Source: Verrucomicrobiota bacterium (GTDB taxonomy: Bacteria; Verrucomicrobiota; Verrucomicrobiia; Opitutales; Opitutaceae). From it: 43,544 nt of DNA. A model generated the notes under the pieces. The model had not been told where the DNA came from and searched no databases. It worked only from the letters and a program-made list of their open reading frames with translations. The first letter of the stretch is position 1. Each line of letters starts with the position of its first letter. This document shows positions 1,031 through 15,924 of this stretch, piece after piece. The position numbers were made by a program, and so were the translations under genes. Where the stretch lies: the NCBI GenBank assembly GCA_016871775.1, contig VHCI01000017.1, positions 1 to 43,544 of the forward strand. Reading direction: 5' to 3'.

Positions 1031-2026
1031 TCACGCGGAATCCGCGGAATAACGCGCCGCCAGGGCGGTGGCGGCGGCGGCGAGGCGGCGCCGCAGTTCC
1101 GGCGGGCGTACCACCTCAGCGTCGGGCCCCCACGAAAGGATCCAACCCGCGACCTCGGCTAGGGCCCCCAGCCGGATGGAGAGCTCCACGCCTCCCTCTG
1201 GTCGTGGGCTGAGTTCCTGGGATTCATGCCACTCCCGCTCTCGGACGCGGTCGGCGACGGCGGCAGAAAAGCGCACGACGACTCGGAAGTTCCCGGCTCC
1301 ACCCAGCACCCCGAGGGCGGAGGCGAAGAAACGCTCGGGGGAGAAGTCGGACGGCCGGGTGAAGCGGGCGTGCAGGACCTTCACGCGCCCAATGCGCGGC
1401 AGGGCGAAGGTGCGGAGGGCGCCACGCTCCGGGTCGTGGGCGACGAGGTACCAGAGGTTTTCGCGGTGCGCGAGGTGGTAGGGGTCGACGCGGCGGCGCG
1501 CCGCTCGGGATTCCCCTGGCTTGCGGTACTCGAACTCTACCGCCCGTTGGCGCAGGACGGCGGTGCTCAAAGCATTGAACACGACAAGGTCCGCGCGGCC
1601 GAGTCCAGTGTTGCGAAAGGACACGGACTGCAGCTCGTCGGCGGGGGAAAAGGAGATCCGATCCTTGAGCCCGCCGGTCAGCTTGTCGAACGAGGCCTCC
1701 AGCTGCCGGTGGAACGGGGTGCCGCGGTACTGCTCAAGTGCCTTACGGGCAACGAGGAGGGCGAGCAGCTCGCCCTCAGTGACGTTGATGGTGGGGAAGG
1801 CGGCGACCGGGTGCGTGTAGCGGTAGGCGTTGATGAGGGGGTCGAACTCGACCGGAAGGTCGAGGCGGTCGCGCATAAAGGCGATGTCGCGCACGATGGT
1901 CTTGCGGGAGACCTCAAGGGCGGCGGCCAGCTTGGTGCAGTTCGTAAAGGCACCGCGGCGCAGCTCGTCGTGGATTCGCAGCATCCTTTCCATCGGGGGC
2001 CGGGAAGTGTGGTAGGGGGCGGGCAC
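1031..2026 (-). CDS. HTH/WYL-domain transcriptional regulator
   Basis: 331 codons from a GTG at 2024-2026; ATG codons at 1993 and 1984 are alternative starts just before the conserved M-L-R-I-H-D-E-L helix. Residues about 12-65 form a DeoR-like winged helix-turn-helix, with the recognition helix around S-R-K-T-I-V-R-D-I (40-48). Residues about 140-320 match a WYL domain: R-V-D-P-Y-H-L near 179-185, the W-Y-L triplet at 192-194, and a C-terminal WCX-like part ending in W-I-L-S-W-G. WYL domains are thought to sense ligands such as nucleic acids or small molecules. The gene is divergent from a hypothetical gene and an amino-sugar cluster. An inverted repeat lies in the 67-bp gap, so it may regulate itself and the rightward genes. 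The regulatory link is inference; the family call is firm. Confidence 0.92.
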   Translation of the reverse strand: MPAPYHTSRPPMERMLRIHDELRRGAFTNCTKLAAALEVSRKTIVRDIAFMRDRLDLPVEFDPLINAYRYTHPVAAFPTINVTEGELLALLVARKALEQYRGTPFHRQLEASFDKLTGGLKDRISFSPADELQSVSFRNTGLGRADLVVFNALSTAVLRQRAVEFEYRKPGESRAARRRVDPYHLAHRENLWYLVAHDPERGALRTFALPRIGRVKVLHARFTRPSDFSPERFFASALGVLGGAGNFRVVVRFSAAVADRVREREWHESQELSPRPEGGVELSIRLGALAEVAGWILSWGPDAEVVRPPELRRRLAAAATALAARYSADSA

Positions 2027-2766: not shown

Positions 2767-5700
2767 ATGTTTCGGATGTCCTCCGCGACCATCGACGCCG
2801 CCGCCCTCCGTTCGGTCGCCGCCGCCTTCCGGCTCAGCGGCACCTACTGCGGCGGGGCGCCTCACGGCAACGGGCACATCAACGACACGTTCGCGGTCAC
2901 CTTCGAGCAGGCCGGCGTCGCCACCCGCTACATCCTCCAGCGAATCAACGAGCACGTCTTCCGCGATGTGGACGCCGTGATGGCGAATGTCGCTCGGGTT
3001 ACGGCCCATGCCGGGCGGCGGGCGCTAGCCGCCGGGGTGCCGGACCCGCAACGGCGGGTCCTCACGCTAATCCCGACCCGGGGTGGGGAAAACCTCCTTC
3101 GGGACGCGACCGGCGCGTGGCGCTGTTATGTGTTTATTGCGGACGCGACCTCGCACGACGTGATCCGGAGCCCGGAGATGGCGCGGGAGGCGGCGCGTGC
3201 GTTCGGGGAGTTCCAGCGGATGCTCGGCGACCTTCCCGGGGAGCGCCTGCGGGAGACGATTCCAGACTTCCACCACACGCGGCGCCGCTTTGACGTCCTG
3301 ATGAAAGCCGCAGCCGAGGACCGGCGGGGTCGGACGGCGGGGGTTGCCGCCGAACTGGCCTTTGTCCGCAGGCGTGAGCCGATGGTCGACCGGCTGCTCG
3401 ATCTCCATGCCCAGGGGCAACTGCCCGAACGCGTCACCCACAACGACACCAAGCTTAACAACGTCCTGATCGATGACCGGACCGGCGCTGGACTCTGCGT
3501 CATCGACCTCGATACGGTGATGCCGGGGCTGGCGCTCTACGACTTCGGCGACTTGGTGCGTTCTGCGACGAACGCCGCGCCGGAGGACGAGCGTGACCTT
3601 GCGAAAGTGCGTGCGCGGCCGGAGATCTTCGAGGCCTTGGTCGAGGGCTACCTCGCGGGCACGAGTGGGTTGCTGAACGAGGCCGAAATGGGGCAACTCG
3701 CGTTCGCGGGCCGGCTGATTAGTCTCGAGATCGGGATGCGCTTCCTCACCGATCACCTCGAGGGCGACGCCTACTTCCGCATCCATCGCGACAGCCAAAA
3801 CCTTGATCGGGCCCGCAGCCAGTTTGCGCTGGTGCGGAGCCTCGAGTACCAGCGCGAGGCGATGGAGGCGGTGGTCTGGCGCCTCGCCGCCCGCACCCGC
3901 CGCAGCTCAACCGCCACCGCTTCCGCTCCCATGATCCCTACCTCCAGCGAGTCCCAGCAGCGCGAGCGCATCGCGACCGAAATTTTCCCGGGGGCCGATG
4001 ACGCCTGCGCCCGTTTGGCGGGCGAGATCGCCGAGTTGATCCGCGCCCATGACCAAGCCGGCAAGCCGACGGTGCTTGGCCTCGCCACCGGTTCCACCCC
4101 AGTCCGGCTGTACCGGCAGCTGATCCGGCTACATCGCGAGGAGGGCCTGAGCTTCCGCAACGTCATCGCATTTAATCTCGACGAGTACTACGGGCTCCCG
4201 CGTGAGCACCCGGAGAGCTACTGGCGCTTCATGCACGAGCAGCTCTTCAACCACGTCGACATCCCGGCGGCCAACGTGAACGTGCCGGACGGCACCGTGC
4301 CGCGCGGCGAGGTGTTCGCGTCGTGCCGCCGCTACGAGGAGCGGATCCGCGCGGCGGGTGGCCTTGACCTGCAGGTGCTCGGCATTGGCCGTACGGGCCA
4401 CATCGGCTTCAACGAGCCCGGCTCCAGCCGGGAATCCCGCAGCCGCCTCGTCACCCTCGACGGTCTCACTCGGCGCGACGCGGCCCGCGACTTCCTCGGA
4501 GAGGCTAACGTGCCCCGTCACGCGATCACGATGGGTGTCGGTTCCATTCTCGACGCGCGCCGCATCGTGCTGCTCGCGTGGGGTGAGTCCAAGGCTGCCG
4601 TCGTCGCCGCCGCGGTTGAGGCTCCGCCGTCGGACGCGCTACCGGCTAGCTTCCTCCAGGGGCACCCGCAGGTTCGTTTCCTGCTCGACGCGGCCGCGGC
4701 CTCCGCGCTCACCCGCGTCCGCCACCCGTGGTTGGTCACCTCGGTCGAATGGAGCCCGGCGCTCGCCCGCCGCGCCGTAATGTGGCTCTCGCAGGCCGTC
4801 GGGAAACCGGTGTTGAAGCTGCTTGACGAGGACTACAGTGAGCACGGGATGGCGGACCTCCTGACCGAGCAGGGCCCCAGCTACGGGTTGAACATTCGGA
4901 TCTTCAACGAGATCCAGCGCACGATCACCGGTTGGCCCGGCGGCAAGCCCAACGCGGACGACAGCTCGCGCCCCGAGCGGGCCCTGCCGTTCCCAAAGCG
5001 GGTCGTGGTCTTTAGCCCGGAGCCCTCCCACGATGTGCTCGGGATGGGAGGCACGCTGCGCCGGCTCAAGGACCAGGGTCACGACGTCACGGTCGCCTAC
5101 CTGACCTCCGGGAATCTCGCCGTGCCAGACGAGGAGGCGGTGATGGCAGCGGACCTCGTGGGCGACATTGCGGAGACTGTTGCGCGTTCCGAAGGGCGGG
5201 TGGCAGAGTTTGCGCGGACCACCCGCCAGGAACTGCTCGAGAAGGCGGCTTTCGCCGCGGACTCGACGTCGATCCGTCGGCTCAAGGGTTTGCTGCGTCG
5301 CGGGGAGGCGCGCGCCTCGCTGCGGGACTGCGGCTACGCTCCGGGCCAGGCCCGCTTCCTCGACCTCGCGTTCTACGAGCGTGGGCGCTACCGCCAGTTC
5401 GCGCCCGGCGCGGAGGACCTGGCAGCGGTGGCTAAGCTGCTGCGCGAGCTGACGCCAAACCAGATTTTCCTCACGGGCGAGCGGGACGACCCAAGCTCAA
5501 TTACCGCGGTTGGCTACCACTTGGTCCAGCAGGCGTGGCGGCAGGTGGCTGGCGAGGCATGGGCTAAAGACTGCCGGATCTGGGCGTACCGCGGGGTCGA
5601 GCAACCGTGGGAGGCGGCGGAAATCGAGATGGCAGTGCCGCTCAGCCCGCGTGAGCTAGCGCAGAAGATCCAAGCCGTGTTCCACCACAAGTCCCAGCGC

Positions 5701-5844
5701 AGCCAGACGCCTGTGGCCGCTGGTCTCCGCGAGCCCTGGCAGCAGGCGGAGCAGGAGAACCGTGCCCTAGCGGCCAATTACGACAAGCTGGGGTTGGCCG
5801 ACTACGAGGCCCTCGAGGGCTTCTCCCGTGCGCGCCTCGGCTGA
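2767..5844 (+). CDS. nagB: APH-family sugar kinase / GlcN-6-P deaminase (NagB) / PIG-L-like three-domain protein
   Basis: One open frame of 1025 codons from ATG 2767 (ATG 2776 is equally possible). Residues about 10-375 are an aminoglycoside-phosphotransferase-fold kinase resembling N-acetylhexosamine 1-kinases, with catalytic H-N-D-T-K-L-N-N (225-232) and I-D-L-D-T (246-250). A Ser/Thr/Ala linker leads to an internal Met389. Residues about 395-650 are a glucosamine-6-phosphate deaminase domain: A-T-G-S-T-P, F-N-L-D-E-Y (469-474), and R-T-G-H-I-G-F-N-E-P (542-551). In that last motif the usual catalytic Asp (E. coli Asp141) is Thr543, while His545 and Glu550 remain. Residues about 740-1000 are a PIG-L-type domain as in long Bacteroides NagB-like proteins, but H-P-D-D is replaced by E-P-S-H (752-755) and the later histidine motif is D-P-S-S-I-T (908-913), so the metal site looks lost. 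A TGA in another frame overlaps the internal ATG (3931-3934). Separate kinase and NagB genes joined by an indel therefore remain possible. Confidence 0.85.
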   Translation: MFRMSSATIDAAALRSVAAAFRLSGTYCGGAPHGNGHINDTFAVTFEQAGVATRYILQRINEHVFRDVDAVMANVARVTAHAGRRALAAGVPDPQRRVLTLIPTRGGENLLRDATGAWRCYVFIADATSHDVIRSPEMAREAARAFGEFQRMLGDLPGERLRETIPDFHHTRRRFDVLMKAAAEDRRGRTAGVAAELAFVRRREPMVDRLLDLHAQGQLPERVTHNDTKLNNVLIDDRTGAGLCVIDLDTVMPGLALYDFGDLVRSATNAAPEDERDLAKVRARPEIFEALVEGYLAGTSGLLNEAEMGQLAFAGRLISLEIGMRFLTDHLEGDAYFRIHRDSQNLDRARSQFALVRSLEYQREAMEAVVWRLAARTRRSSTATASAPMIPTSSESQQRERIATEIFPGADDACARLAGEIAELIRAHDQAGKPTVLGLATGSTPVRLYRQLIRLHREEGLSFRNVIAFNLDEYYGLPREHPESYWRFMHEQLFNHVDIPAANVNVPDGTVPRGEVFASCRRYEERIRAAGGLDLQVLGIGRTGHIGFNEPGSSRESRSRLVTLDGLTRRDAARDFLGEANVPRHAITMGVGSILDARRIVLLAWGESKAAVVAAAVEAPPSDALPASFLQGHPQVRFLLDAAAASALTRVRHPWLVTSVEWSPALARRAVMWLSQAVGKPVLKLLDEDYSEHGMADLLTEQGPSYGLNIRIFNEIQRTITGWPGGKPNADDSSRPERALPFPKRVVVFSPEPSHDVLGMGGTLRRLKDQGHDVTVAYLTSGNLAVPDEEAVMAADLVGDIAETVARSEGRVAEFARTTRQELLEKAAFAADSTSIRRLKGLLRRGEARASLRDCGYAPGQARFLDLAFYERGRYRQFAPGAEDLAAVAKLLRELTPNQIFLTGERDDPSSITAVGYHLVQQAWRQVAGEAWAKDCRIWAYRGVEQPWEAAEIEMAVPLSPRELAQKIQAVFHHKSQRSQTPVAAGLREPWQQAEQENRALAANYDKLGLADYEALEGFSRARLG

Positions 5845-5846
5845 TC

Positions 5847-7253
5847 GTGTCTCCGATGCTCCCCTTGGCCCCCTCCCTGCGGCCGTCTCTGGAACGGGAC
5901 TTTGTCCCAGCCGCCCTATGGAACCGCGCCTATGGGTCGCTGGTCGCTCGGGATCCCGGATCCCGGCCCTTTGCGCTGGTGCTCCGCTCCCCAGGCGGCG
6001 CGGTCTCGCGGCGCGACAGTCGCGTGCTGGGCGCGGGTCACCCGCAGGCGGCGCTGACCCTAATTTTCGCTGAGCGCTTGCTGAAGTTCCTCCTCTGGCA
6101 ACGAGGCGGCTGCCACGTCTCCGTAGGTGGAGCCGACGAGGTAGCCCGCCATCTCGCGACGGTGTACGCCTCCACCGGCGCGCGCGCCTTTGACCACGCC
6201 TTCATGGGTGAGCACACCTACCAGGCCGGGTTCCGGATCGAGGCGTGCCCGCTCGCTGAACTGCCCGCGGAGGCGGTCGCCGTCCTGCCGGTCGGGCGCC
6301 ACCTCGATGGGTGCCGGATCGGCTTTGATCTCGGCGGCAGCGACCGCAAGGCCGCCGCGCTCATCGACGGCAAAGTGGTCTTCTCGGAGGAGATCGCCTG
6401 GGAACCCTATTTCCAGCAGGATCCCGCCTACCACCTTGAGGGGATCCACGACTCCCTCGTCCGGGCGGCCCGCCACCTGCCAAGGGTGGACGCGATCGGC
6501 GGCAGCGCCGCAGGCGTTTACGTGAACAACGAGGTGCGGGTCGCCTCCCTGTTCCGAGGGGTGCCGGCCGCGGCGTTTGACCCGCACGTGCGCCGGATAT
6601 TCTTCACCCTTCAAAACCGCTGGGGAGGCGTGCCCTTCGAGGTCGCCAACGACGGCGAGGTTACTGCGCTCGCCGGCTCGTTGAGCCTCGGCGACGGAGC
6701 GGTGCTCGGCATCGCGATGGGCACCAGCCTCGCCGCGGGCTACGTGACGCCCTCCGGCGGCATCACCCCGTGGCTGAACGAGCTGGCCTTCGCGCCGGTC
6801 GACTATCACCCGGATGCCCCGCGGGACGAATGGTCCGGTGACGCCGGTTGTGGCGCGCAATACTTCTCTCAGCAGGCGGTCGGTCGGCTCGCCCCCGCCG
6901 CCGGGCTGGATTTTCCCGCCAGCTTGACCCTGCCGGAAAAGCTGATTCGCGTGCAGGAGGCGATGGCGGCCGGGGACGAGCGGGCCGCCCGAATCTACGA
7001 GTCGATCGGCACCTCCTTCGGCTACGCGATCGCCCACTACGCCGACTTTTACGCTTTGCGCCACCTCCTCGTACTGGGCCGCGTCACCTCCGGCGCCGGC
7101 GGCGACCTGTTGCTGCAGCGTGCCCGCGAGGTCCTCCGCGCCGACTTTCGGGAACTTGCCGCGCGGGTCCGCTTGCTCACCCCGGACGAGAAGGACAAAC
7201 GCCACGGTCAGGCGATCGCGGCCGCGAGCCTGCCCGCCCTCCGCTCCGCCTGA
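5847..7253 (+). CDS. ROK-type sugar kinase with long N-terminal extension
   Basis: 468 codons from GTG at 5847, two bases after the preceding stop; ATG at 5856 is an alternative. The first ~155 residues precede the kinase fold and match nothing I can name. The ROK/hexokinase-type ATPase then begins: phosphate-1 motif G-F-D-L-G-G-S-D-R-K (159-168), adenosine/catalytic region V-A-N-D-G-E-V-T (266-273) with Asp269 as probable base, and phosphate-2 motif G-I-A-M-G-T-S (288-294). The C-x-C-G-x-x-G-C zinc cluster of classical ROK proteins is absent; only G-C-G-A-Q-Y-F (334-340) is present, so this is an atypical subgroup. A 6-kinase for GlcN or GlcNAc feeding the NagB domain upstream is the natural guess from context. 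The spacing says it is in the same operon as the fusion protein and the PIG-L gene. Confidence 0.82.
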   Translation: MSPMLPLAPSLRPSLERDFVPAALWNRAYGSLVARDPGSRPFALVLRSPGGAVSRRDSRVLGAGHPQAALTLIFAERLLKFLLWQRGGCHVSVGGADEVARHLATVYASTGARAFDHAFMGEHTYQAGFRIEACPLAELPAEAVAVLPVGRHLDGCRIGFDLGGSDRKAAALIDGKVVFSEEIAWEPYFQQDPAYHLEGIHDSLVRAARHLPRVDAIGGSAAGVYVNNEVRVASLFRGVPAAAFDPHVRRIFFTLQNRWGGVPFEVANDGEVTALAGSLSLGDGAVLGIAMGTSLAAGYVTPSGGITPWLNELAFAPVDYHPDAPRDEWSGDAGCGAQYFSQQAVGRLAPAAGLDFPASLTLPEKLIRVQEAMAAGDERAARIYESIGTSFGYAIAHYADFYALRHLLVLGRVTSGAGGDLLLQRAREVLRADFRELAARVRLLTPDEKDKRHGQAIAAASLPALRSA

Positions 7254-7261
7254 CCCTACCG

Positions 7262-8113
7262 ATGAAGCTCTCCCAACCTCAGGCCGACATCCTGTTTTCC
7301 GCTGCCGACTCGAGCGCCGCGGCGGCGCTCGGCCGGGTCACGCACCTCTGCTTCGGCGCGCACCAGGATGACATCGAGATTATGGCGCACGCGGGCATCA
7401 GCGATTGCCTCGACCAACCCGGGTTCGCGTTCGGCGGCGTCGTGGTCACCAATGGAGCGGGTTCCCCGCGCACTGGCCCCTACGAGCTCCTCGATGACGC
7501 GCAGATGCAGAGGATCCGCGCCGAGGAGCAGCGTGCGGCCGCGCGCTTGGGACAGTACGCGATCCAGCTCCAGCTCGCGCATCCCAGCAGCGCGGTGAAG
7601 TCACCCGGGCACCCAGGCGTCTCGGCCGACCTCGACCTGATCTTCGGGGGCTGTTTGGCGCAGATCGTCTATCTGCACAATCCGGCCGACAAGCACGACA
7701 CTCACGTGGCGGTATTCCTGCGCTGCCTTGAGGCGCTGCGCCGCCTGCCGGTCGCCCGACGGCCCCGCCGCGTGCTCGGCTGCGAGGTCTGGCGCGACCT
7801 GGACTGGCTGGTGGATGCCGACAAGGTCGCTCTGGACGCGGGCCGCCATCCCTCCCTCGCCCTCGACCTGCTCAAGGTCTTCGATTCCCAAGTCGCTGGC
7901 GGCAAGCGCTACGACCGCGCTACCGTCGGCCGCCGACAGGCGCACGCTACGTTCCACACCTCGCATGCGACGGACCGTATGGCAGGTATTACTTGGGCGA
8001 TGGACCTGACCCCGCTGATTCGAGATCCCGCGCTGTCTCCGGAGGCGTACACGCTGGGTTACCTGGAACGGCTACAGACGGACGTACGGGACCGGATGCG
8101 GCGTTTTGCCTGA
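7262..8113 (+). CDS. PIG-L family deacetylase
   Basis: 283 codons from ATG 7262, eight bases after the ROK stop. The zinc motif is intact here: A-H-Q-D-D-I-E (33-39) supplies the first metal ligands and catalytic Asp. The second motif, L-H-N-P-A-D-K-H-D-T-H (138-148), supplies the third histidine. PIG-L enzymes remove N-acetyl groups from GlcNAc-containing lipids, thiols or sugars. There is no signal peptide, so it is cytosolic. It follows a NagB/pseudo-PIG-L fusion and a sugar kinase, and no nagA is visible. A role in removing acetate from GlcNAc or a GlcNAc derivative before deamination is a reasonable inference. A 5-bp hairpin follows the stop directly. Confidence 0.9.
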   Translation: MKLSQPQADILFSAADSSAAAALGRVTHLCFGAHQDDIEIMAHAGISDCLDQPGFAFGGVVVTNGAGSPRTGPYELLDDAQMQRIRAEEQRAAARLGQYAIQLQLAHPSSAVKSPGHPGVSADLDLIFGGCLAQIVYLHNPADKHDTHVAVFLRCLEALRRLPVARRPRRVLGCEVWRDLDWLVDADKVALDAGRHPSLALDLLKVFDSQVAGGKRYDRATVGRRQAHATFHTSHATDRMAGITWAMDLTPLIRDPALSPEAYTLGYLERLQTDVRDRMRRFA

Positions 8114-8566: not shown

Positions 8567-9901
8567 ATGCGCATGCCCCTGCTGCTTCTCACCCTCCTGC
8601 TACCGTCCCTGTTCGCCGCCGCCCCCGCGGGCGACGCGCCCCGTTGGTACAAGGGAAACACCCACACCCACTCGCTCTGGAGCGACGGGGATGACTACCC
8701 GGAGATGATCGCCGACTGGTACAAGCGCGCTGGCTATCACTTCCTCGCGCTGTCGGACCACAACATACTGTCCGAGGGCACCTTCTGGTTCGAGTTGAAG
8801 GCCCCGGTGTCCCTCATGGGTGAGGTGGTGCAGCGTGGCGGCGGGGAGGTCCTGCAGAAGTACCTGCGGCGCTTCGGCGCGGATTGGGTGGAGTTGCGGG
8901 AGAACTCGGGCCGCCGCGAGGTGCGGCTGAAACCGCTGGCGGAGTTCGCGCCGCTTCTCAACGAGCCGGGCAGGTTCCTGCTCATCCCCGCGGAAGAGAT
9001 CAGTGGCGCGTGGTCCCGGCCGAAGTCAGAGACGGCCGCCGCGCTCACCAGTCCAGTCCACATCAATGTGACCAACCCCCGCGATCTCGTGCCCGCGGTG
9101 AACGCCGCGGACGCGATCACTGTGATGCAGCGCACGCTCGAGGCGGTGGATGCCCAGCGCGAGCGGACTGGCCAGCCGATGTTCGCCCACCTCAACCACC
9201 CGAACTTCCGCTGGGGCGTAACCGCCGAGGAGATGATGCGCGTTGAGCGGCTTCGGTTCTTCGAAGTCTACAACGGCCATCCCGGAGTCGAGAACGCGGG
9301 TGACGCCACCCGCCTCAGCATGGACGCGATGTGGGACGCGATCCTCGCGTTCCGCCTCTCCGAGCTCAATTTCAGCGTGGTCTACGGCGTGGCCACGGAT
9401 GATTCGCACCACTACCACAAGGTTGGTCCCGGCCGGAGCAGTTCCGGGCGCGGCTGGGTGATGGTGCGGGCCCGCCACCTGACCGCGGAGTCGCTGATTC
9501 GCGCGCTGGAGGCGGGTGATTTCTATGGCTCCTCGGGGGTGGCCCTGCGGGAGGTGGTGCGCGAATCAGGGCGGCTTGCCGTCGAGGTGGAGCCGGAGGC
9601 GGGGGTGTCGTACCGCATCCAGTTCATTGGCACCCGGCGCGGTTTCGAACGTCGCAGCGAGGAGATGACGGCACCCGCCGATGAGAAACCGGCCCGCCGC
9701 ACCCTCGCTCACCGCCGATATAGCCCGCAGGTAGGGGCCGTGCTTGCGGAGAGCACTGGCGCGCGCGCTGAATATCGCCTGCAGGGGGATGAACTCTACG
9801 TCCGCGCGAAGGTGATCTCTTCCAAGCCCAAGGCGGACGGGAGCGTGCCCGGCGAATGGGAGACGGCGTGGGTGCAGCCCATCGTCGGTGCCCGGCCCTG
9901 A
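8567..9901 (+). CDS. Exported PHP-domain metallohydrolase (CehA/McbA-like)
   Basis: 444 codons from ATG 8567; the frame is open further upstream but only this start gives a signal peptide (M-R-M-P-L-L-L-L-T-L-L-L-P-S, cleavage near A-A-A-P-A-G-D-A). The mature N-terminus carries the PHP metal motif N-T-H-T-H (31-35) with S-D-G-D (39-42). A-L-S-D-H-N (61-66), P-A-E-E (141-144), H165, N-H-P (210-212) and T-D-D-S-H-H (277-282) follow. These are the expected metal-binding positions of a polymerase/histidinol-phosphatase-type trinuclear site. The family contains phosphoesterases and amidohydrolases; the substrate is unknown. Residues after about 330 form a beta-rich tail. It is convergent with a sulfatase operon and probably works in the periplasm on a phosphorylated or glycan-derived substrate, though that is inference. 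Confidence 0.85.
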   Translation: MRMPLLLLTLLLPSLFAAAPAGDAPRWYKGNTHTHSLWSDGDDYPEMIADWYKRAGYHFLALSDHNILSEGTFWFELKAPVSLMGEVVQRGGGEVLQKYLRRFGADWVELRENSGRREVRLKPLAEFAPLLNEPGRFLLIPAEEISGAWSRPKSETAAALTSPVHINVTNPRDLVPAVNAADAITVMQRTLEAVDAQRERTGQPMFAHLNHPNFRWGVTAEEMMRVERLRFFEVYNGHPGVENAGDATRLSMDAMWDAILAFRLSELNFSVVYGVATDDSHHYHKVGPGRSSSGRGWVMVRARHLTAESLIRALEAGDFYGSSGVALREVVRESGRLAVEVEPEAGVSYRIQFIGTRRGFERRSEEMTAPADEKPARRTLAHRRYSPQVGAVLAESTGARAEYRLQGDELYVRAKVISSKPKADGSVPGEWETAWVQPIVGARP

Positions 9902-9908: not shown

Positions 9909-11342
9909 TTAATTCCGCTTCTGCTTTGCCTGCTTGGCGTCGGGATCAATCGCGCGGGGACGGTTGGCGGGGCCTGGTTTGGGCGCAGGCAGCTTTGCCA
10001 GCTGGGCGCGGGCCTCCGCCAGCGTGGAGGTGAGGGCGGGATCGGCGATCCGGTTGTGGTACTCCTCTGGGTCGTCGGCTCGCCAATAGAGCTCGCGGCC
10101 GAATTCGCCACCGCCCCATTCGGTGTAGCGCCAACGAGGCCCGATCACGGTGCGGCCCGCCACATCGAGCCGGCGGCCAAGGTCGTAGTGGTAGACGAGG
10201 CTGTGGGCGTGTCCGGTGCTGCTGGGGTTGGCGAGGAGCGGTCGCAGGGAGCGACCCTCGAGGCCCGCTGGCTTCGGCAAGCCGGCGAGGTCGACCAGCG
10301 TGGGGTAGACATCGAGCAGTTCTACTGGGGTGGAAACAACCGTGCCGTGGGGTATGCCGGGGCCCGCAGCGAGGAGCGGCACGCGGGTGGAGGCGTCAAA
10401 GGCGGTGAGTTTCGCCCACAGGCCCCCGTGGTCCCCGAGGTGGAAGCCGTGATCGCTGAAGAGCACCACGATCGTGGTCTCCGTGAGTTTTAAGCGGTCC
10501 AACTCATCGAGGACCAACCCCAGTTGCTCGTCGATGAACGAGACGCATGCGAGGTAGCCCTGGATCGCGGCGGCACGAGAGTCAGGCTGGGCGAAACCGG
10601 TTAGCTCCGTCTGCAACGCGATCGGCGGAACCTCGCGCAGCGGCAGCTCCGCGGGGAGGGGGATGCTGGCGGGAGGGTAGAGATCGAAGAACCGGCGGGG
10701 CGCCGTCCACGGGAGGTGCGGCTTGTGGAAGCCGAGGGCGAGGAAGAAAGATCCGCCCGCGGCCGCGCGCTCCCCGAGCAGGCGGCGAATGGTGCGGGCG
10801 TTCAGGCCGTCGCGCGTGCGGGAGCCGTCCGAGCTGAGGACGTGCGCGCGGGGCCGGCCGTCCCCGCCGCCATACCGCGACTCGATTGCCGCCTTCTCCT
10901 CCGGGTCCTCACCTGCACCGTCCTCGTATTGATCCCACGCCGCGGGGTCACTCGTGCGCACACTGTGGAAGACCTTCCCCACGCCGGCCGTGAAATAGCC
11001 CTGACGGCGGAAGTGTTCCGGCAACAGCACCGCGTCCGGAAGCGCGGTCCGCGCGGGGGTACCGAGGATGTAGACCCCGCTGGTCTCCGGCCGGCGCCCG
11101 CTTAGGAAGGACACCCGGCTCGGATTGCAGAGCGTGTACTGGGCATACGCGCGATCAAAGCGGGCGCCCCGCGCCGCCAGGCGGTCGATCGCCGGGGACT
11201 TGACGTGCCCGTGCCCGTAGGCGCCCAGCAGAGTGTTCAGGTCGTCGACAACGACCAGTAGCACGTTCGACGGGGTCGGTGCCGCTGCCCCGCTGGAGGC
11301 GAGGACAAGACCGAGCGGAAGCAGGCGCAGGAGGCGAAGCAT
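9909..11342 (-). CDS. Exported sulfatase, iduronate-2-sulfatase-like (third in operon)
   Basis: 477 codons from ATG 11340-11342; this start gives a signal peptide (M-L-R-L-L-R-L-L-P-L-G-L-V-L-A-S-S). The alkaline-phosphatase-superfamily core follows: V-V-D-D-L-N (31-36) for calcium, and C72-N-P-S-R, the C-x-P-x-R signature where Cys is converted to formylglycine. G-F-H-K-P-H-L-P-W and F-S-D-H-G-F-H-L-G-D-H-G are the later active-site motifs. The H-K-P-H-L-P and D-H-G-F-x-L-G-D-H patterns are those of the iduronate-2-sulfatase-like subfamily (S1_7). Such enzymes desulfate glycosaminoglycans or algal/fucose-rich polysaccharides in the periplasm. It starts 11 bp after the stop of the preceding sulfatase gene, so it is co-transcribed. 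The Lys-rich C-terminus (K-Q-A-K-Q-K-R-N) is low-complexity. Confidence 0.93.
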   Translation of the reverse strand: MLRLLRLLPLGLVLASSGAAAPTPSNVLLVVVDDLNTLLGAYGHGHVKSPAIDRLAARGARFDRAYAQYTLCNPSRVSFLSGRRPETSGVYILGTPARTALPDAVLLPEHFRRQGYFTAGVGKVFHSVRTSDPAAWDQYEDGAGEDPEEKAAIESRYGGGDGRPRAHVLSSDGSRTRDGLNARTIRRLLGERAAAGGSFFLALGFHKPHLPWTAPRRFFDLYPPASIPLPAELPLREVPPIALQTELTGFAQPDSRAAAIQGYLACVSFIDEQLGLVLDELDRLKLTETTIVVLFSDHGFHLGDHGGLWAKLTAFDASTRVPLLAAGPGIPHGTVVSTPVELLDVYPTLVDLAGLPKPAGLEGRSLRPLLANPSSTGHAHSLVYHYDLGRRLDVAGRTVIGPRWRYTEWGGGEFGRELYWRADDPEEYHNRIADPALTSTLAEARAQLAKLPAPKPGPANRPRAIDPDAKQAKQKRN

Positions 11343-11353
11343 CGGGGAAGATC

Positions 11354-12826
11354 CTAGCGAGGGAGGGCGCCACGCCAACCGGTCCGCCATTGCGTCATCA
11401 GGCGTTGGACGAGCGTCTGCTGCCCAGGCTCGGCCGCAAGGTTCTGGTTCTCCTGCGGATCAGCCTGATGATCGTAGAGCTCGATGGCCTCCACCTTCGC
11501 GGGGTTGCCCCGCTCGACCCAGACCGTGAAGCGATGGCGCTCGGTCCGCATCGAGTAGCCCATTAGGTTACGGCCGCCATTCGAGCGCGGATACTGGCTG
11601 AAGGCGGCGGTCTTCCACGGACGATCGGGCTGCTCGAGGACGGGTTTTAAGCTCCAACCCTCGAGGTGGCCGGGCAGTGGCAAACCAGCGAGGTCGGCGA
11701 GGGTGGGATAGATGTCGACGAACTCCACCAAGGCCCGCGACTTGGCGCCGGCCGTCCCCAGCCAAGGGGCGGAGAGCAGGAGCGGGGCGTTGGTGTCGTT
11801 CTCGGAGTTCGAGTGTTTGCACCAAGCATCATGCTCCCCGAGCTTCCAGCCGTGGTCGCCCCAGAGAACGATCATCGTGTTCTGCCTCAAGCCGGAGCGC
11901 TCAAGCTCGTCGAGCACGCGGCCGAGTTGCGCGTCCATATAACTGATGGCAGCATAGTAGCCGTGCTTAAGCTGGCGAGCGAGGTCATCGGGGATCGGGC
12001 CCTCGGGAATCCCGTGGTAGGAGCGCAACTCCCCTCCGGGTAAAATCGCGTACTCGGGCGCTCCACGGGGCCGGAAGCGGTTGGGTGCGAGGGTGATCTT
12101 CGCGGGATCGTAGAGGTCCCAGTACTTCTTGGGCGCCACGAACGGGAGGTGCGGCTTGGCGAAGCCGACGGCGAGGAAGAAGGGGGCGCTCTTCTTCCCG
12201 AGTTCGCGCAGGGTCTCCACCGCGAGATCCGCGGTGCGGCCGTCAGTGTAGTAATTATCAGGAACGTCCGCCGACTCGAAAGCCGGACCGCGGGGGCCCT
12301 TCGCCGCCTTCCGCGCGGCCCTCCGGTCGCCAGGTGCGGCCGCGGCCGGCGCCCGCTGCGTGAGGGCCACGTTCTCAGGCCGCGCGTAGGCCCCGCTGGC
12401 CCTCGGCGTTTGCCACGGCACGGACCAAGTGGGTGCGTCGTCAAAGCCCCCGTGGAAGATCTTGCCCATCCCCTGCACGAAGTAGCCATGCTGCTTGAAG
12501 TGCTGGCCGACCGTCACGACGTCCGGCAGTGCCTTGCGGAAGTGCGTCTCGAGATCCCAGACCTTGCTGGTGTCGGGACGGGTACCGGTCATCACGGCGG
12601 TCCGGGACGGGGAGCATACGGCCTGCTGGCAGTAGGCGCGGGTGAAGGTCACGCCCGCGCGGGCAAGGCGGTCGAGGTTGGGGCTGCGCACATAACCCGC
12701 GCCATAGGCGCCGAACTCCGGCCGGAGGTCGTCCACGGCAAAGAACAGCACGTTGGGCTTGGTCGGACGCTCGGCCGCGGTCGCAGCGAAGTTGCCGCAC
12801 AGGGTCAGGATGAGGAGGACACGCAT
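11354..12826 (-). CDS. Exported sulfatase, iduronate-2-sulfatase-like (second in operon)
   Basis: 490 codons from ATG 12824-12826. A signal peptide (M-R-V-L-L-I-L-T-L-C-G-N-F-A-A-T-A-A) precedes P-N-V-L-F-F-A-V-D-D-L-R-P. The formylglycine site is C71-S-P-S-R, with T-G-T-R-P-D-T just after. F-A-K-P-H-L-P-F and G-D-H-G-W-K-L-G-E-H are later active-site motifs. Overall it matches S1_7, iduronate-2-sulfatase-like, as the downstream gene does, but the two differ enough to suggest different sulfate positions or substrates. An Ala/Arg-rich insert around residues 150-180 has no obvious role. It starts 15 bp after the upstream sulfatase stop. A maturase (formylglycine-generating enzyme or anSME) is not in the window. 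Confidence 0.93.
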   Translation of the reverse strand: MRVLLILTLCGNFAATAAERPTKPNVLFFAVDDLRPEFGAYGAGYVRSPNLDRLARAGVTFTRAYCQQAVCSPSRTAVMTGTRPDTSKVWDLETHFRKALPDVVTVGQHFKQHGYFVQGMGKIFHGGFDDAPTWSVPWQTPRASGAYARPENVALTQRAPAAAAPGDRRAARKAAKGPRGPAFESADVPDNYYTDGRTADLAVETLRELGKKSAPFFLAVGFAKPHLPFVAPKKYWDLYDPAKITLAPNRFRPRGAPEYAILPGGELRSYHGIPEGPIPDDLARQLKHGYYAAISYMDAQLGRVLDELERSGLRQNTMIVLWGDHGWKLGEHDAWCKHSNSENDTNAPLLLSAPWLGTAGAKSRALVEFVDIYPTLADLAGLPLPGHLEGWSLKPVLEQPDRPWKTAAFSQYPRSNGGRNLMGYSMRTERHRFTVWVERGNPAKVEAIELYDHQADPQENQNLAAEPGQQTLVQRLMTQWRTGWRGALPR

Positions 12827-12841
12827 CGAGGGAAAGCGGGT

Positions 12842-14761
12842 TTAGTCCTTGGTGTTCTTGCGGCGGCCTTTGGCCTTGCGCACGCCCTCGCCCTCGGGGG
12901 CGGCGGCAGGCGCACCGGTGAGGTTGGCGATCTGGCGCGGGATGTACGAGTCGTAGCGCGTATCCGGGGCGGGACCCTGCGGATTCATCGTGCGCACCAC
13001 CTCGTGCAGCGGCGCGGCCTTGGCGCCGAGGGCCTCGACCGCGGCGAGGGCGGACGTAGAAACGAAAAACCCGTTTTGAGCGGGCGGGAGCAACTCGCGG
13101 AGCGCGGCCAAGGCACCCGGCAACTCCGCTGGGGGGCCGTCCTGCGCGAGCGCCTGTGCCGCCACGATCCGCACCAGACGGGAGCCGTCGCGGAGCGCCT
13201 CCCGCAGGGGGGCGACCGCGGCGTTGACGGCGAAGGGCCCCCGCATCAGCAGCCCGAGCGCGGCCCAGTGCCGTACCGCCGAGTCGCCGTCCGCGAGCAA
13301 CGCGCCCAGACGCGGAATCGCGGCCGGATCGAGCCCCGAGGCGAGGTCCGCTGCGGCGTAGATGCGACCGAACGGGAAGCGCGCCTCGTCGCGCGCGAAG
13401 TCATACGGAGTCGTGCCGGCGGCACGGCTGTGAATCTCTCCCTCCGGCAGGAAGCCGAGGTCGCGGACGCGCTCAGCGTGGCCGCGCATCTCCTCGCGCA
13501 ATCGCTCGAGGATGGCGCGGTGGACCGCCGAACTCGCGAGGTTGCGCACCTCGTCGGGATCGCCCTGCAAGTCGTAGAGCTCCTCCGGCGCCTTCGGCGT
13601 GCGCCAAAAGAGGGATTGCGCCTCGGTGGCCTGTCCGGCGTCGAAGCGCTCCCGCCAGATTTGGGTCGTCGGGGTCTGGAATTGGTAGTCCACTCGCTGG
13701 CCCTGGGAGACGTGCTGGTGGAAGTTGCGCAGGTAGACGTAGCGGCCGTCCGTGACGCTCCGCACCGCGTCCATCCGCTCGTCCATCCGCCCGCGCGCGC
13801 CGTGGAGGAATTTGGGGCCCGCGACCTGGTGCGGCCCGGCGAAGGCGTGTCCCTGCATATAGGCCGGCGGCTTCACCCCCGCAATGCTCAGCACGGTCGG
13901 CGCGAGGTCGACGAAGCTGACGAGGCGGTCCGAGCGCCCGCCGGGCTGGTACTCCTTCGGCGCGAGCGGCCGCCACTTGGGCGGGAAAAAGACGACCATC
14001 GGCACGTGCAGGCCGGAGTTCGAGGGCCAGCGTTTGCTGCGGGGCATCCCGCTGCCGTGGTCCCCGTAGTAGAACACGATCGTGTCCTCGGCTAGACCCG
14101 CCGCCTCCAGCTCGCGCAGGCGCGCGCCCGCGTCGGCGTCGGCCTCGCTCACCTTGTCGTAGTACTGCGCCCAGTCCTGCCGCACCTCGGGGGTGTCCGG
14201 GTGATAGGCCGGCACGCGCACCTTTGTCGGATCGGTGATCGCCTGATGCGGCCGAGTGCGGATCTGGCTCTCGTGGCTCTTGGTGGAGTTGAAGATGGCG
14301 AAGAACGGGCGCCCCGCAGGGCGGTTGCGCCAGTGGGCCTGCCCAGAGGAGTCATCCCAGACGCCCTCGGGCTTGCGGAGATTATAGTCCTCCTTGCTGT
14401 TGTTGGTCGCGTAGTAGCCTGTGTCGCGCAGGAACTGGGGATACATCCGCTGGCCGGCCCCCAGCGTGACCATCGAGCGCATATGCAGGCCGCCGCTGCT
14501 CTGCGCGTAAAGGCCCGAGATGATTGCGGTGCGCGCCGGAGCGCACACGGGATGTACGGACCACGCCCGGCGGAAGATCATCCCCTTGGCCGCGAGCGCG
14601 TCGACGTTGGGCGTCCGCGCCAGCTGGTCCCCGTAGCAGCCCATCTCGATTCCGTGGTCCTCGCTGGTCAGCCAGAGGATGTTCGGCCGATCCGCGGCGC
14701 GCGCGGGCAAGGCGAGCAGGAGGAGCCAAAGGGCGGGACGGACGAGGGCGGGGAGGATCAT
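12842..14761 (-). CDS. Exported sulfatase with C-terminal HEAT-like region (first in operon)
   Basis: 639 codons from ATG 14759-14761, which gives a signal peptide (M-I-L-P-A-L-V-R-P-A-L-W-L-L-L-L-A-L-P). The core begins R-P-N-I-L-W-L-T-S-E-D-H-G. The S-E-D motif replacing D-D and the C73-A-P-A-R site are typical of the heparan N-sulfatase-like group (S1_8). Y-G-D-H-G-S-G-M-P is the later metal/active-site motif. Residues about 470-610 are Ala/Leu-rich repeats (W-A-A-L-G-L-L-M-R-G-P, then V-A-A-Q-A-L-A-Q-D-G) resembling HEAT repeats, seen in some proteins of this group. The tail is basic (K-A-K-G-R-R-K-N-T-K-D). It is the promoter-proximal member of a three-sulfatase run; 80 bp separate it from the aguA stop, so an own promoter or read-through from aguA are both possible. 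Confidence 0.92.
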   Translation of the reverse strand: MILPALVRPALWLLLLALPARAADRPNILWLTSEDHGIEMGCYGDQLARTPNVDALAAKGMIFRRAWSVHPVCAPARTAIISGLYAQSSGGLHMRSMVTLGAGQRMYPQFLRDTGYYATNNSKEDYNLRKPEGVWDDSSGQAHWRNRPAGRPFFAIFNSTKSHESQIRTRPHQAITDPTKVRVPAYHPDTPEVRQDWAQYYDKVSEADADAGARLRELEAAGLAEDTIVFYYGDHGSGMPRSKRWPSNSGLHVPMVVFFPPKWRPLAPKEYQPGGRSDRLVSFVDLAPTVLSIAGVKPPAYMQGHAFAGPHQVAGPKFLHGARGRMDERMDAVRSVTDGRYVYLRNFHQHVSQGQRVDYQFQTPTTQIWRERFDAGQATEAQSLFWRTPKAPEELYDLQGDPDEVRNLASSAVHRAILERLREEMRGHAERVRDLGFLPEGEIHSRAAGTTPYDFARDEARFPFGRIYAAADLASGLDPAAIPRLGALLADGDSAVRHWAALGLLMRGPFAVNAAVAPLREALRDGSRLVRIVAAQALAQDGPPAELPGALAALRELLPPAQNGFFVSTSALAAVEALGAKAAPLHEVVRTMNPQGPAPDTRYDSYIPRQIANLTGAPAAAPEGEGVRKAKGRRKNTKD

Positions 14762-14841: not shown

Positions 14842-15924
14842 TCAGGCCGGCTGCTGCTGAGTCAGGCAGTGCAGGGTGCCGAAACCGAGCACGAGGTCGG
14901 CGGCGTGGATGCCGACCACCTTCCGCTCCGGGAACAGCTCGGCGAGCGTCCCGAGCGCGATCCGGTCGTTTGGATCATTGAAGGTGGGCACGAGCACGTA
15001 GGCGTTCCCGATGTAGAAGTTCGCGTAGCTGGCTGGCAGCCGCATCCCGTCGAACTGCTGAGGCCCGGGCATCGGCAGGGCAACCACCTCGGGCTTCGAG
15101 CCGTCCTCCAGCCGCAGATCTCGGATGCGTTCCCAGTTCTCAGCGAGCGGCCGGTAGTTTACGTCCCGGCGATTATCCTCGCGGATCAGCACGACCGTGC
15201 GCGGGTTCACGAAGCGGCACAGGTCGTCGACGTGTCCGTGGGTGTCATCGCCGACGAGGCCGTCGCCGAGCCAGAAGACGTTGGTGGCGCCGAGGTTCGC
15301 CTTCACCACCCGTTCGAACTCCGCGCGGCCAACGCCGGGGTTGCGCACCTGCACCCTGGGGTGGAGGTAGCACTCCTCAGTGGTGAGGATGGTGCCGCGC
15401 CCGTTCACGTCGATCCCTCCGCCCTCAAGCACGAAGGGGCGGCCGTCCTCGCGGGTCGCCTCGAAGAGGGTCTGGCCCAGCCGGCGGGCCGCGATCTCCG
15501 GCACCCGGTGGTCGTGCTGCCAATCCCGGTACTTGGCCCACGCGTTGAAGTGGAAATGCACGATCGCGGTCTCGCGGCCGCGGCCGCGGGGCCGCTGCAC
15601 GAAGATGGGGCCGCTGTCCCGGGTCCACCCGCGGTTGGTGCGGTGGGGGACGAACTCGATCCGCGTGAGGTCGACGTGCGCGCGGCTCAGCACCCGACGG
15701 GCCTGAAGCTCCTCCCGGTGGTCATTGACTAGGATGCGGACAATTTCCCCCGCGGTGAGCTTGCGGACCATCTCGCCGTAGACCCAGTGGATGGTGGAGA
15801 GCTTATCTGGCCAGTCGGTTGGGTGATGGGGCCAGCCGAGCCAGGTGGCCTCGTGGCGCTCCCATTCAGCGGGCATCGCGAATCCAAGCTGGGTGGGGGA
15901 AGGGGAGGCGGCGGGAGCGGGCAT
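14842..15924 (-). CDS. aguA: Agmatine deiminase
   Basis: 360 codons from ATG 15922-15924. All landmarks of the agmatine deiminase/peptidyl-arginine deiminase-like fold are present. They are M-P-A-E-W-E-R-H-E-A-T-W-L-G-W-P (17-32), W-T-R-D-S-G-P (100-106), E-G-G-G-I-D (167-172), D-T-H-G-H-V-D-D (227-234) and the nucleophile in L-H-C353-L-T-Q-Q-Q-P. It converts agmatine to N-carbamoylputrescine plus ammonia in the cytosol. No aguB (N-carbamoylputrescine amidase) or arginine decarboxylase lies beside it. It is divergent from a deoxyhypusine-synthase-like gene and an ornithine-decarboxylase-family gene, so a polyamine role is well supported by context. Confidence 0.95.
   Translation of the reverse strand: MPAPAASPSPTQLGFAMPAEWERHEATWLGWPHHPTDWPDKLSTIHWVYGEMVRKLTAGEIVRILVNDHREELQARRVLSRAHVDLTRIEFVPHRTNRGWTRDSGPIFVQRPRGRGRETAIVHFHFNAWAKYRDWQHDHRVPEIAARRLGQTLFEATREDGRPFVLEGGGIDVNGRGTILTTEECYLHPRVQVRNPGVGRAEFERVVKANLGATNVFWLGDGLVGDDTHGHVDDLCRFVNPRTVVLIREDNRRDVNYRPLAENWERIRDLRLEDGSKPEVVALPMPGPQQFDGMRLPASYANFYIGNAYVLVPTFNDPNDRIALGTLAELFPERKVVGIHAADLVLGFGTLHCLTQQQPA

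Follow-up and report, generated by a model that had tools for sequence, protein, structure and literature searches.

Why would a bacterium place a sugar kinase, a glucosamine-6-phosphate (GlcN-6-P) deaminase and a deacetylase-like domain on one polypeptide, and what does each of the three contribute? The question is raised by a gene at positions 2767-5844 (forward strand) of contig VHCI01000017.1 from an Opitutaceae member of the Verrucomicrobiota (assembly GCA_016871775.1); the window is the whole 43,544-nucleotide stretch that was analysed. The gene encodes a NahK-like N-acetylhexosamine (HexNAc) kinase domain, a NagB domain and a PIG-L domain whose catalytic zinc site is lost. It is a genuine, rare and inherited gene fusion in the Opitutaceae, whose anatomy (reading frame, folds, motif loss, conservation and gene contexts) was observed directly. 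We consider it probable that the fusion ties the entry of an amino-sugar route (HexNAc to HexNAc-1-phosphate) to its exit (GlcN-6-P to fructose-6-phosphate, Fru-6-P), with the dead PIG-L domain as a structural or regulatory module; the activities, the step order and the function of the dead domain are what we infer. The uncommon joining of a kinase to the other two domains hints at the pair of steps whose coupling benefits the cell, and the clade of pseudo-deacetylases from which the dead domain comes is the more interesting part of the story.

Anatomy of the fused protein

The gene is a single uninterrupted open frame of 1025 amino acids, with no internal stops. Pfam places an APH domain at residues 32-276 (69 bits), Glucosamine_iso at 410-632 (81 bits) and PIG-L at 748-908 (32.7 bits against a cut-off of 28.2), and the NCBIfam model for long NagB-like proteins, PRK02122 (NF002557), spans residues 383-1022 at 818.5 bits, well above its curated cut-off of 384. 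PRK02122 proteins have the same NagB and PIG-L order, but the fused protein has an additional N-terminal kinase and has lost the PIG-L zinc site. The kinase domain (residues 12-372, positions 2800-3882) is homologous over its full length to Bifidobacterium NahK; a phmmer search of the PDB matched 4ocu over residues 12-372 with 265 bits and an E value of 9.5e-78. An earlier note, made from the letters alone, had described a three-domain single chain with a NahK-like kinase, and open frame, domain models and alignment all bear this out, the best PDB matches being the Bifidobacterium enzymes. Kinase and NagB are joined by a linker (residues 373-395, positions 3883-3951) that contains an internal ATG at 3931-3933, within the ATGA at 3931-3934 to which the same note had drawn attention; the corresponding residue, M389, is the position at which the separate NagB proteins of relatives start. 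The structure model covers residues 390-1025, leaving the kinase outside it, and has a predicted local distance difference test score (pLDDT) of 91.4. When the genome of the window, which is 96% complete, was searched with the whole fused protein, the only further match listed was to the NagB part, and it was weak (30%, E 8.4e-5).

Authenticity, distribution and origin of the fusion

The ATGA admits a trivial explanation, which the earlier note had kept as its alternative: two adjacent genes, a kinase and a NagB/PIG-L gene overlapping at that point, could look fused because of an indel introduced in sequencing or assembly. Separate adjacent genes do exist in two relatives (L119 and L122), with 61 and 76 bases between them in gene calls made in this analysis, and this arrangement is likely to be the earlier state of the fusion. 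However, comparison with related Opitutaceae, which the note had proposed as a check, yielded single proteins crossing the kinase-NagB junction in three further assemblies (G081, with loci L003/L118; L032; and L033), so that the one-frame fusion is present in four genomes standing for four species. The junction in L032 has no ATG at all, and the linker aligns without gaps to that of G081, with a ratio of nonsynonymous to synonymous substitution rates (dN/dS) of 0.186. Because the linker is ungapped and under purifying constraint, and because the fusion recurs in relatives, an indel artefact is ruled out and deserves almost no credence.

The fused proteins of the window and of G081 are 93% identical, and their genes are ungapped in the stretches compared. 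For this one pair, the Nei-Gojobori dN/dS is 0.062 in the kinase, 0.056 in NagB, 0.045 in PIG-L and 0.013 in the stretch joining the latter two, at dS values of 0.59-0.90; all domains and the linker are under purifying selection between these two genomes. A second complication would be translation of the frame both as a whole and from the internal ATG at 3931, yielding additional free NagB/PIG-L. The ATG is kept at the old NagB start in L001 (the window's own locus), L118 and L033, but it is lost in L032, and no Shine-Dalgarno-like match precedes 3931, although the other starts tested show matches just three bases long; we regard such a dual product as very unlikely.

The fusion is uncommon. 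In a draw of 150 genomes from the family, 118 had a match at E <= 1e-20 and two (the window's own genome and G081) had the fusion. A draw of 372 genomes from the order returned the same two and a draw of 387 from the phylum returned the window's genome only, at thresholds of 1e-300 and 1e-230 respectively, which distant fusions would escape; the three draws overlap. Among the best 80 of 590 relatives in a GTDB scan, two were fused in one frame, namely L032 and L033, the latter in a record filed under Opitutaceae. In a NagB/PIG-L tree of 50 rows, L033 stands apart and well supported branches force two changes; a 21-row tree does not reject a single fusion clade (approximately unbiased test, p-AU 0.28), and a kinase tree joins the four fused loci with weak support (82/69). 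One or two fusion events would fit these trees. In the open-licence literature, searched through titles and the starts of abstracts, no description of a kinase-NagB fusion or of a dead PIG-L domain was found.

The PIG-L domain

The C-terminal domain (residues 736-1021, positions 4972-5829) has the LmbE fold. Among the families in the structure-comparison matches listed, the corresponding part of the model resembles the deacetylases BshB (6p2t; VIA Z 23.5 over 205 residues at 2.5 Å), the archaeal diacetylchitobiose deacetylase (Dac) of Pyrococcus (Z 22.9 over 216 residues at 2.9 Å) and MshB (Z 18.4). In the LmbE family, the zinc ligands are a histidine, the second aspartate of an HxDD motif and a distant histidine, and the first aspartate is the general base, as set out in PMC4101496, including its Table 1. 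By alignment, and with ligand roles taken from that source, PEPSHD (positions 5017-5034) replaces PHPDDD in the fused protein, which costs it the general base and zinc ligands one and two, and SSIT (positions 5494-5505) replaces HGTH, removing the last zinc ligand. E752, H755 and T913 stand where the zinc ligands should be, S754 stands at the general base and S910 at the first histidine of HGTH, so that the fold is shared with BshB, Dac and MshB but the HxDD...H site and its general base are absent. The NagB/PIG-L pair described in the earlier note is confirmed, but its PIG-L half has no catalytic motifs, every catalytic position of HxDD...H having been replaced.

This loss extends well beyond the fused lineage. 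Of 128 aligned NagB/PIG-L loci, 54 lack both zinc histidines (positions 752 and 913), 72 have HDDHH at the five site positions and two are mixed (L101, HDDNH; L176, HDNHH). Eighteen duplicates were left out of this alignment, as was one dead locus, L016, with which the count would be 55 of 129, and the set still holds identical pairs, at least L013/L038 and L039/L195. The 72 intact loci come from Bacteroidota, Planctomycetota and other groups, with 14 of them from the window's own family. In the dead group, position 752 is glutamate in all 54 rows, 754 is aspartate in one, and 755 is aspartate in 32 and histidine in 15, the fused protein included. Four residues mark the group, E752 and F878 (54/54 each), Y875 (53/54) and S911 (51/54), none of which is found in any of the 72 intact rows; R837 and R849 are each present in 52 of 54.

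A quick tree of 79 rows, which took 45 of the 54 dead loci (nine were left out, four of them on purpose), places all 45 on one side of a branch with an SH-like approximate likelihood ratio test (SH-aLRT) support of 100. The named dead rows are all Verrucomicrobiota and the others are genomes from the window's family. The 14 intact rows of that family form a group of their own on the side of the Bacteroidota, Planctomycetota and Gemmatimonadota, so that a single family contains both dead and intact proteins. A first sample of 110 loci (51 dead, 59 not) had suggested that the split follows phylum exactly; 20 further loci were fetched to test this, and the 14 intact ones among them, which are from the window's family, beside five dead and one mixed, refute it. 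The mixed locus, L176, has HDN for HDD and an intact HGTH, that is, a half-changed zinc site.

Judged by the replaced ligands and general base, the PIG-L part of the fused protein is a pseudoenzyme rather than an intact deacetylase, and it appears to descend from a clade of NagB/PIG-L proteins of the Verrucomicrobiota. In the pair compared, the selection on it is as strong as that on the enzyme domains. This constraint (dN/dS 0.045) could also be expected of a domain that is still an enzyme, with a rebuilt or metal-free site and another reaction. The new and nearly fixed residues E752, F878, Y875, S911, R837 and R849 would suit such a domain, as would the zinc ligand D755 in the 32 dead rows that keep it, the fused protein not among them. 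However, neither the general base nor any of the three zinc ligands survives in the fused protein, and the dead rows are variable at positions 754, 755 and 913, unlike a catalytic site; a remaining enzymatic function is thus unlikely. Our guess is that the dead domain most likely serves NagB as a structural or ligand-sensing module. A more specific version, which we offer tentatively as a possible but less than even case, is that the domain is a new type of metabolite sensor whose former deacetylase pocket, remodelled about E752, Y875, F878 and S911, binds a ligand derived from HexNAc, such as uridine diphosphate-N-acetylglucosamine (UDP-GlcNAc), GlcNAc-6-P or GlcN-6-P, and controls NagB and, in the fused lineage, the kinase as well. 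One chain would then sense the pathway and regulate its first and last step.

The Verrucomicrobiota clade matters for annotation too: the name of its NCBIfam family says no more than deaminase-like, and its deacetylase domain has lost the metal site while being, in the pair compared, no less constrained than the adjoining enzyme domains; its proteins should not be annotated as deacetylases. It offers a testable case of an enzyme of the PIG-L fold turned regulator or scaffold, for which the intact relatives can serve as control.

The NagB domain

The central domain (residues 396-660, positions 3952-4746) scores above the curated cut-off of the TIGR00502 nagB model (262.1 against 236.9 bits), was aligned to 1cd5 and 2bkv, and matches 1dea and 3hn6 with a VIA Z of 37 in the corresponding part of the model. 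Residues D472, H545 and E550, which align with D72, H143 and E148 of E. coli NagB, presumably catalytic residues, are invariant in all 128 aligned loci. E. coli D141 is not kept; its place is taken by T543, a threonine in 128 of 128 loci. Since asparagine occupies this position in the B. subtilis NagB, the enzyme to whose kinetics the title of entry 2bkv refers, T543 does not exclude deaminase activity, which by homology is the expected function of the domain. Further PRK02122 proteins all lie above the nagB cut-off as well (10/10 tested, six with an intact and four with a dead PIG-L part). A loop of NagB (residues 476-483, compared in 126 loci) differs between the two groups: E. coli-like H481 and E483 are found in 54/54 and 52/54 dead rows, against 12/72 and 1/72 intact ones. 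The two domains may have evolved in concert.

The kinase domain and the carbon that it phosphorylates

The N-terminal domain shares the catalytic loop and the IDLD motif with Bifidobacterium longum NahK (4ocj, 4wh1). The loop, HND...LNN, surrounds D227 (positions 3445-3447), which we take to be the equivalent of NahK D208, as read from the alignment on the assumption of a 20-residue tag; loop and IDLD are presumably the catalytic and metal-binding motifs known from that enzyme. No glucosamine kinase was among the 30 PDB sequences that matched the kinase at E <= 0.001, a search in which the actinobacterial glucosamine kinase SjGlcNK was not aligned directly. A second characterized relative, BT4240 from Bacteroides thetaiotaomicron, is 39% identical to the Bifidobacterium kinase and converts GlcNAc to GlcNAc-1-P with a strong preference for N-acetylgalactosamine (GalNAc), according to PMC11992087. 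Both of these kinases stand alone, whereas here the kinase is joined to a deaminase, in genomes without an epimerase orthologue.

In the Bifidobacterium lacto-N-biose/galacto-N-biose (LNB/GNB) pathway, NahK is paired with GalT and GalE, as outlined in PMC8106489, and relatives of the fused protein likewise group kinase, nucleotidyltransferase-like and epimerase-like genes. Their separate kinases are 50-66% identical to the fused domain. Neighbours were counted in 29 loci of the family, hand-picked, for the most part among the higher-ranking matches in the family draw, some with short flanks and with 11 identifiers excluded as duplicates, among them the window's own locus. In 19 of the 29, a UDP-HexNAc 4-epimerase-like gene with the same orientation as the kinase is no more than 760 bases away from it, and an NTP-transferase-like gene is near the kinase in 16, in 15 of these within 1.3 kb (Pfam was run on the L120 copy). 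The epimerase-like gene has 6wjb as its best PDB relative, followed by a group that includes WbpP and WbgU, which we take to be UDP-GlcNAc 4-epimerases. Unlike the Bifidobacterium gene set, several relatives add NagB/PIG-L to the gene run, and the fused lineages lack the epimerase. A glycoside hydrolase family 20 (GH20) hexosaminidase gene adjoins NagB in L124 and L128, and a sodium:solute symporter gene is present in L124.

The homology to NahK and the epimerase and nucleotidyltransferase genes beside the separate kinases together favour phosphorylation of C1, which is the likelier reading of the fused kinase; if so, NagB probably does not receive its substrate straight from the kinase. This supports a doubt voiced in the earlier note. 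The specificity, which that note had called open, is less so, though the fused genomes lack an orthologous epimerase.

Several observations weigh against C1 phosphorylation and the route to which it would lead. C1 specificity derives from homology and neighbouring genes, and in ten of the 29 loci no gene of this epimerase type lies near the kinase. The family to which the epimerase belongs is a broad one, with UDP-glucose 4-epimerases and UDP-glucuronate decarboxylases also among its PDB matches. Searches of the four fused genomes found no orthologue of the epimerase, the best match being 38-42% identical as against 63-87% among the cluster copies (the window's genome is 96% and G081 93% complete), and none was found in G104 and G049 either. 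The genome of the window, where this was checked, does have the nucleotidyltransferase (68% identical), but unlinked, on another contig. With the epimerase missing and the nucleotidyltransferase unlinked, the nucleoside diphosphate (NDP)-sugar route can be transferred to the fused genomes only with doubt. Furthermore, the window's genome has three NagA-like genes, none of which reaches the nagA cut-off (196, 188 and 154 against 225.65 bits); such matches are weak evidence because the same search finds matches in 14 of 14 control genomes, in seven of them above the cut-off.

These gaps give some room to a kinase domain turned C6 kinase, acting on glucosamine or GlcNAc. Once the PIG-L protein encoded at 7262-8113 had removed the acetyl group, such a kinase would make GlcN-6-P from GlcN and pass it straight to NagB on the same chain for conversion to Fru-6-P. 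The fusion itself speaks for this reading, as do the absence of the orthologous epimerase, both beside the kinase and genome-wide, in the fused lineages and the intact PIG-L gene two genes downstream; GlcN-6-P-forming kinases of a related fold also exist in Actinobacteria, some of them misannotated as aminoglycoside phosphotransferases (PMC6520443). However, the closest solved relatives are NahK C1 kinases, with none of the 30 PDB matches a glucosamine kinase, and the separate kinases of relatives mostly stand with genes of UDP-sugar type. For BT4240, moreover, the position of the bound sugar in a model is argued to preclude phosphorylation of O6 (PMC11992087). On balance a C6 kinase is rather unlikely. 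With C1 retained as the preferred specificity, a fused kinase shifted towards GlcNAc and working with a mutase and NagA would fit.

One relative of the kinase in the same genus as the window (L156:1054-2139, reverse strand, genome G122) has an in-frame TAG and is either a pseudogene or an assembly error.

A proposed pathway

In the route that we propose, the N-terminal domain would phosphorylate an N-acetylhexosamine, GalNAc or GlcNAc, on C1, and the sugar-1-phosphate would pass to separate enzymes, either a nucleotidyltransferase and epimerase or a phosphomutase. Removal of the acetyl group by another separate enzyme, either of NagA type or the PIG-L protein encoded at 7262-8113, would then yield GlcN-6-P, which the NagB domain of the same chain would convert to Fru-6-P and ammonia. 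As the two active domains would not be consecutive in this route, the gain from fusion would lie in co-expression and a fixed stoichiometry rather than in direct channelling, with joint control through the dead domain as a possibility.

Neighbouring genes and the rest of the genome

Upstream of the fused gene, a WYL/WCX transcription regulator identified by Pfam (positions 1031-1984, reverse strand) is divergent from the cluster. The next gene downstream on the same strand (5856-7253) encodes a ROK-fold protein resembling sugar kinases. Its sequence has no Pfam, NCBIfam or PDB match; a Foldseek search with its model (pLDDT 87.4) retrieved ROK regulators and GlcNAc/ManNAc (N-acetylmannosamine) kinases, with a best E value of 8.7e-17. 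The family is well conserved, at 55-75% in 19 relatives. The G081 gene (L118:9333-10726) was matched in two pieces in different frames, and so looks frameshifted in that assembly.

The gene after it (7262-8113, forward strand) encodes the separate PIG-L protein (Pfam PIG-L, 39 bits), a candidate active deacetylase with an intact AHQDD...HDTH; all 17 aligned rows, which include two duplicates, retain its HQDD and H..H. Among loci with at least 3 kb of sequence downstream of NagB/PIG-L, such a gene is found in 18 of 38 dead as against three of 64 intact loci, and the ROK-fold gene in 12 of 38 as against four of 64; in these counts L176 was taken as dead and L101 as intact, and duplicates are included (L036, and the identical L039/L195). 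Compensation for the dead domain by the separate gene was considered, but the excess is no proof of it, because the dead and intact groups are different lineages; moreover, three intact loci of the same family carry the gene.

Elsewhere in the genome, a second run of amino-sugar type lies at L151:3715-7517 (reverse strand) and comprises a NagA-like amidohydrolase, a protein without a Pfam match and a gene that, judged by eye, resembles a symporter. Further along the window, a PHP metallohydrolase of CehA/McbA type, below its curated cut-off, is encoded at 8567-9901 (forward strand), with a 91% identical copy in the same place in G081. Near the cluster but on the opposite strand, three consecutive sulfatase genes with SGSH_C matches occupy 9909-14761, and a member of the Porphyromonas-type peptidyl-arginine deiminase family is encoded at 14842-15876 (reverse strand).

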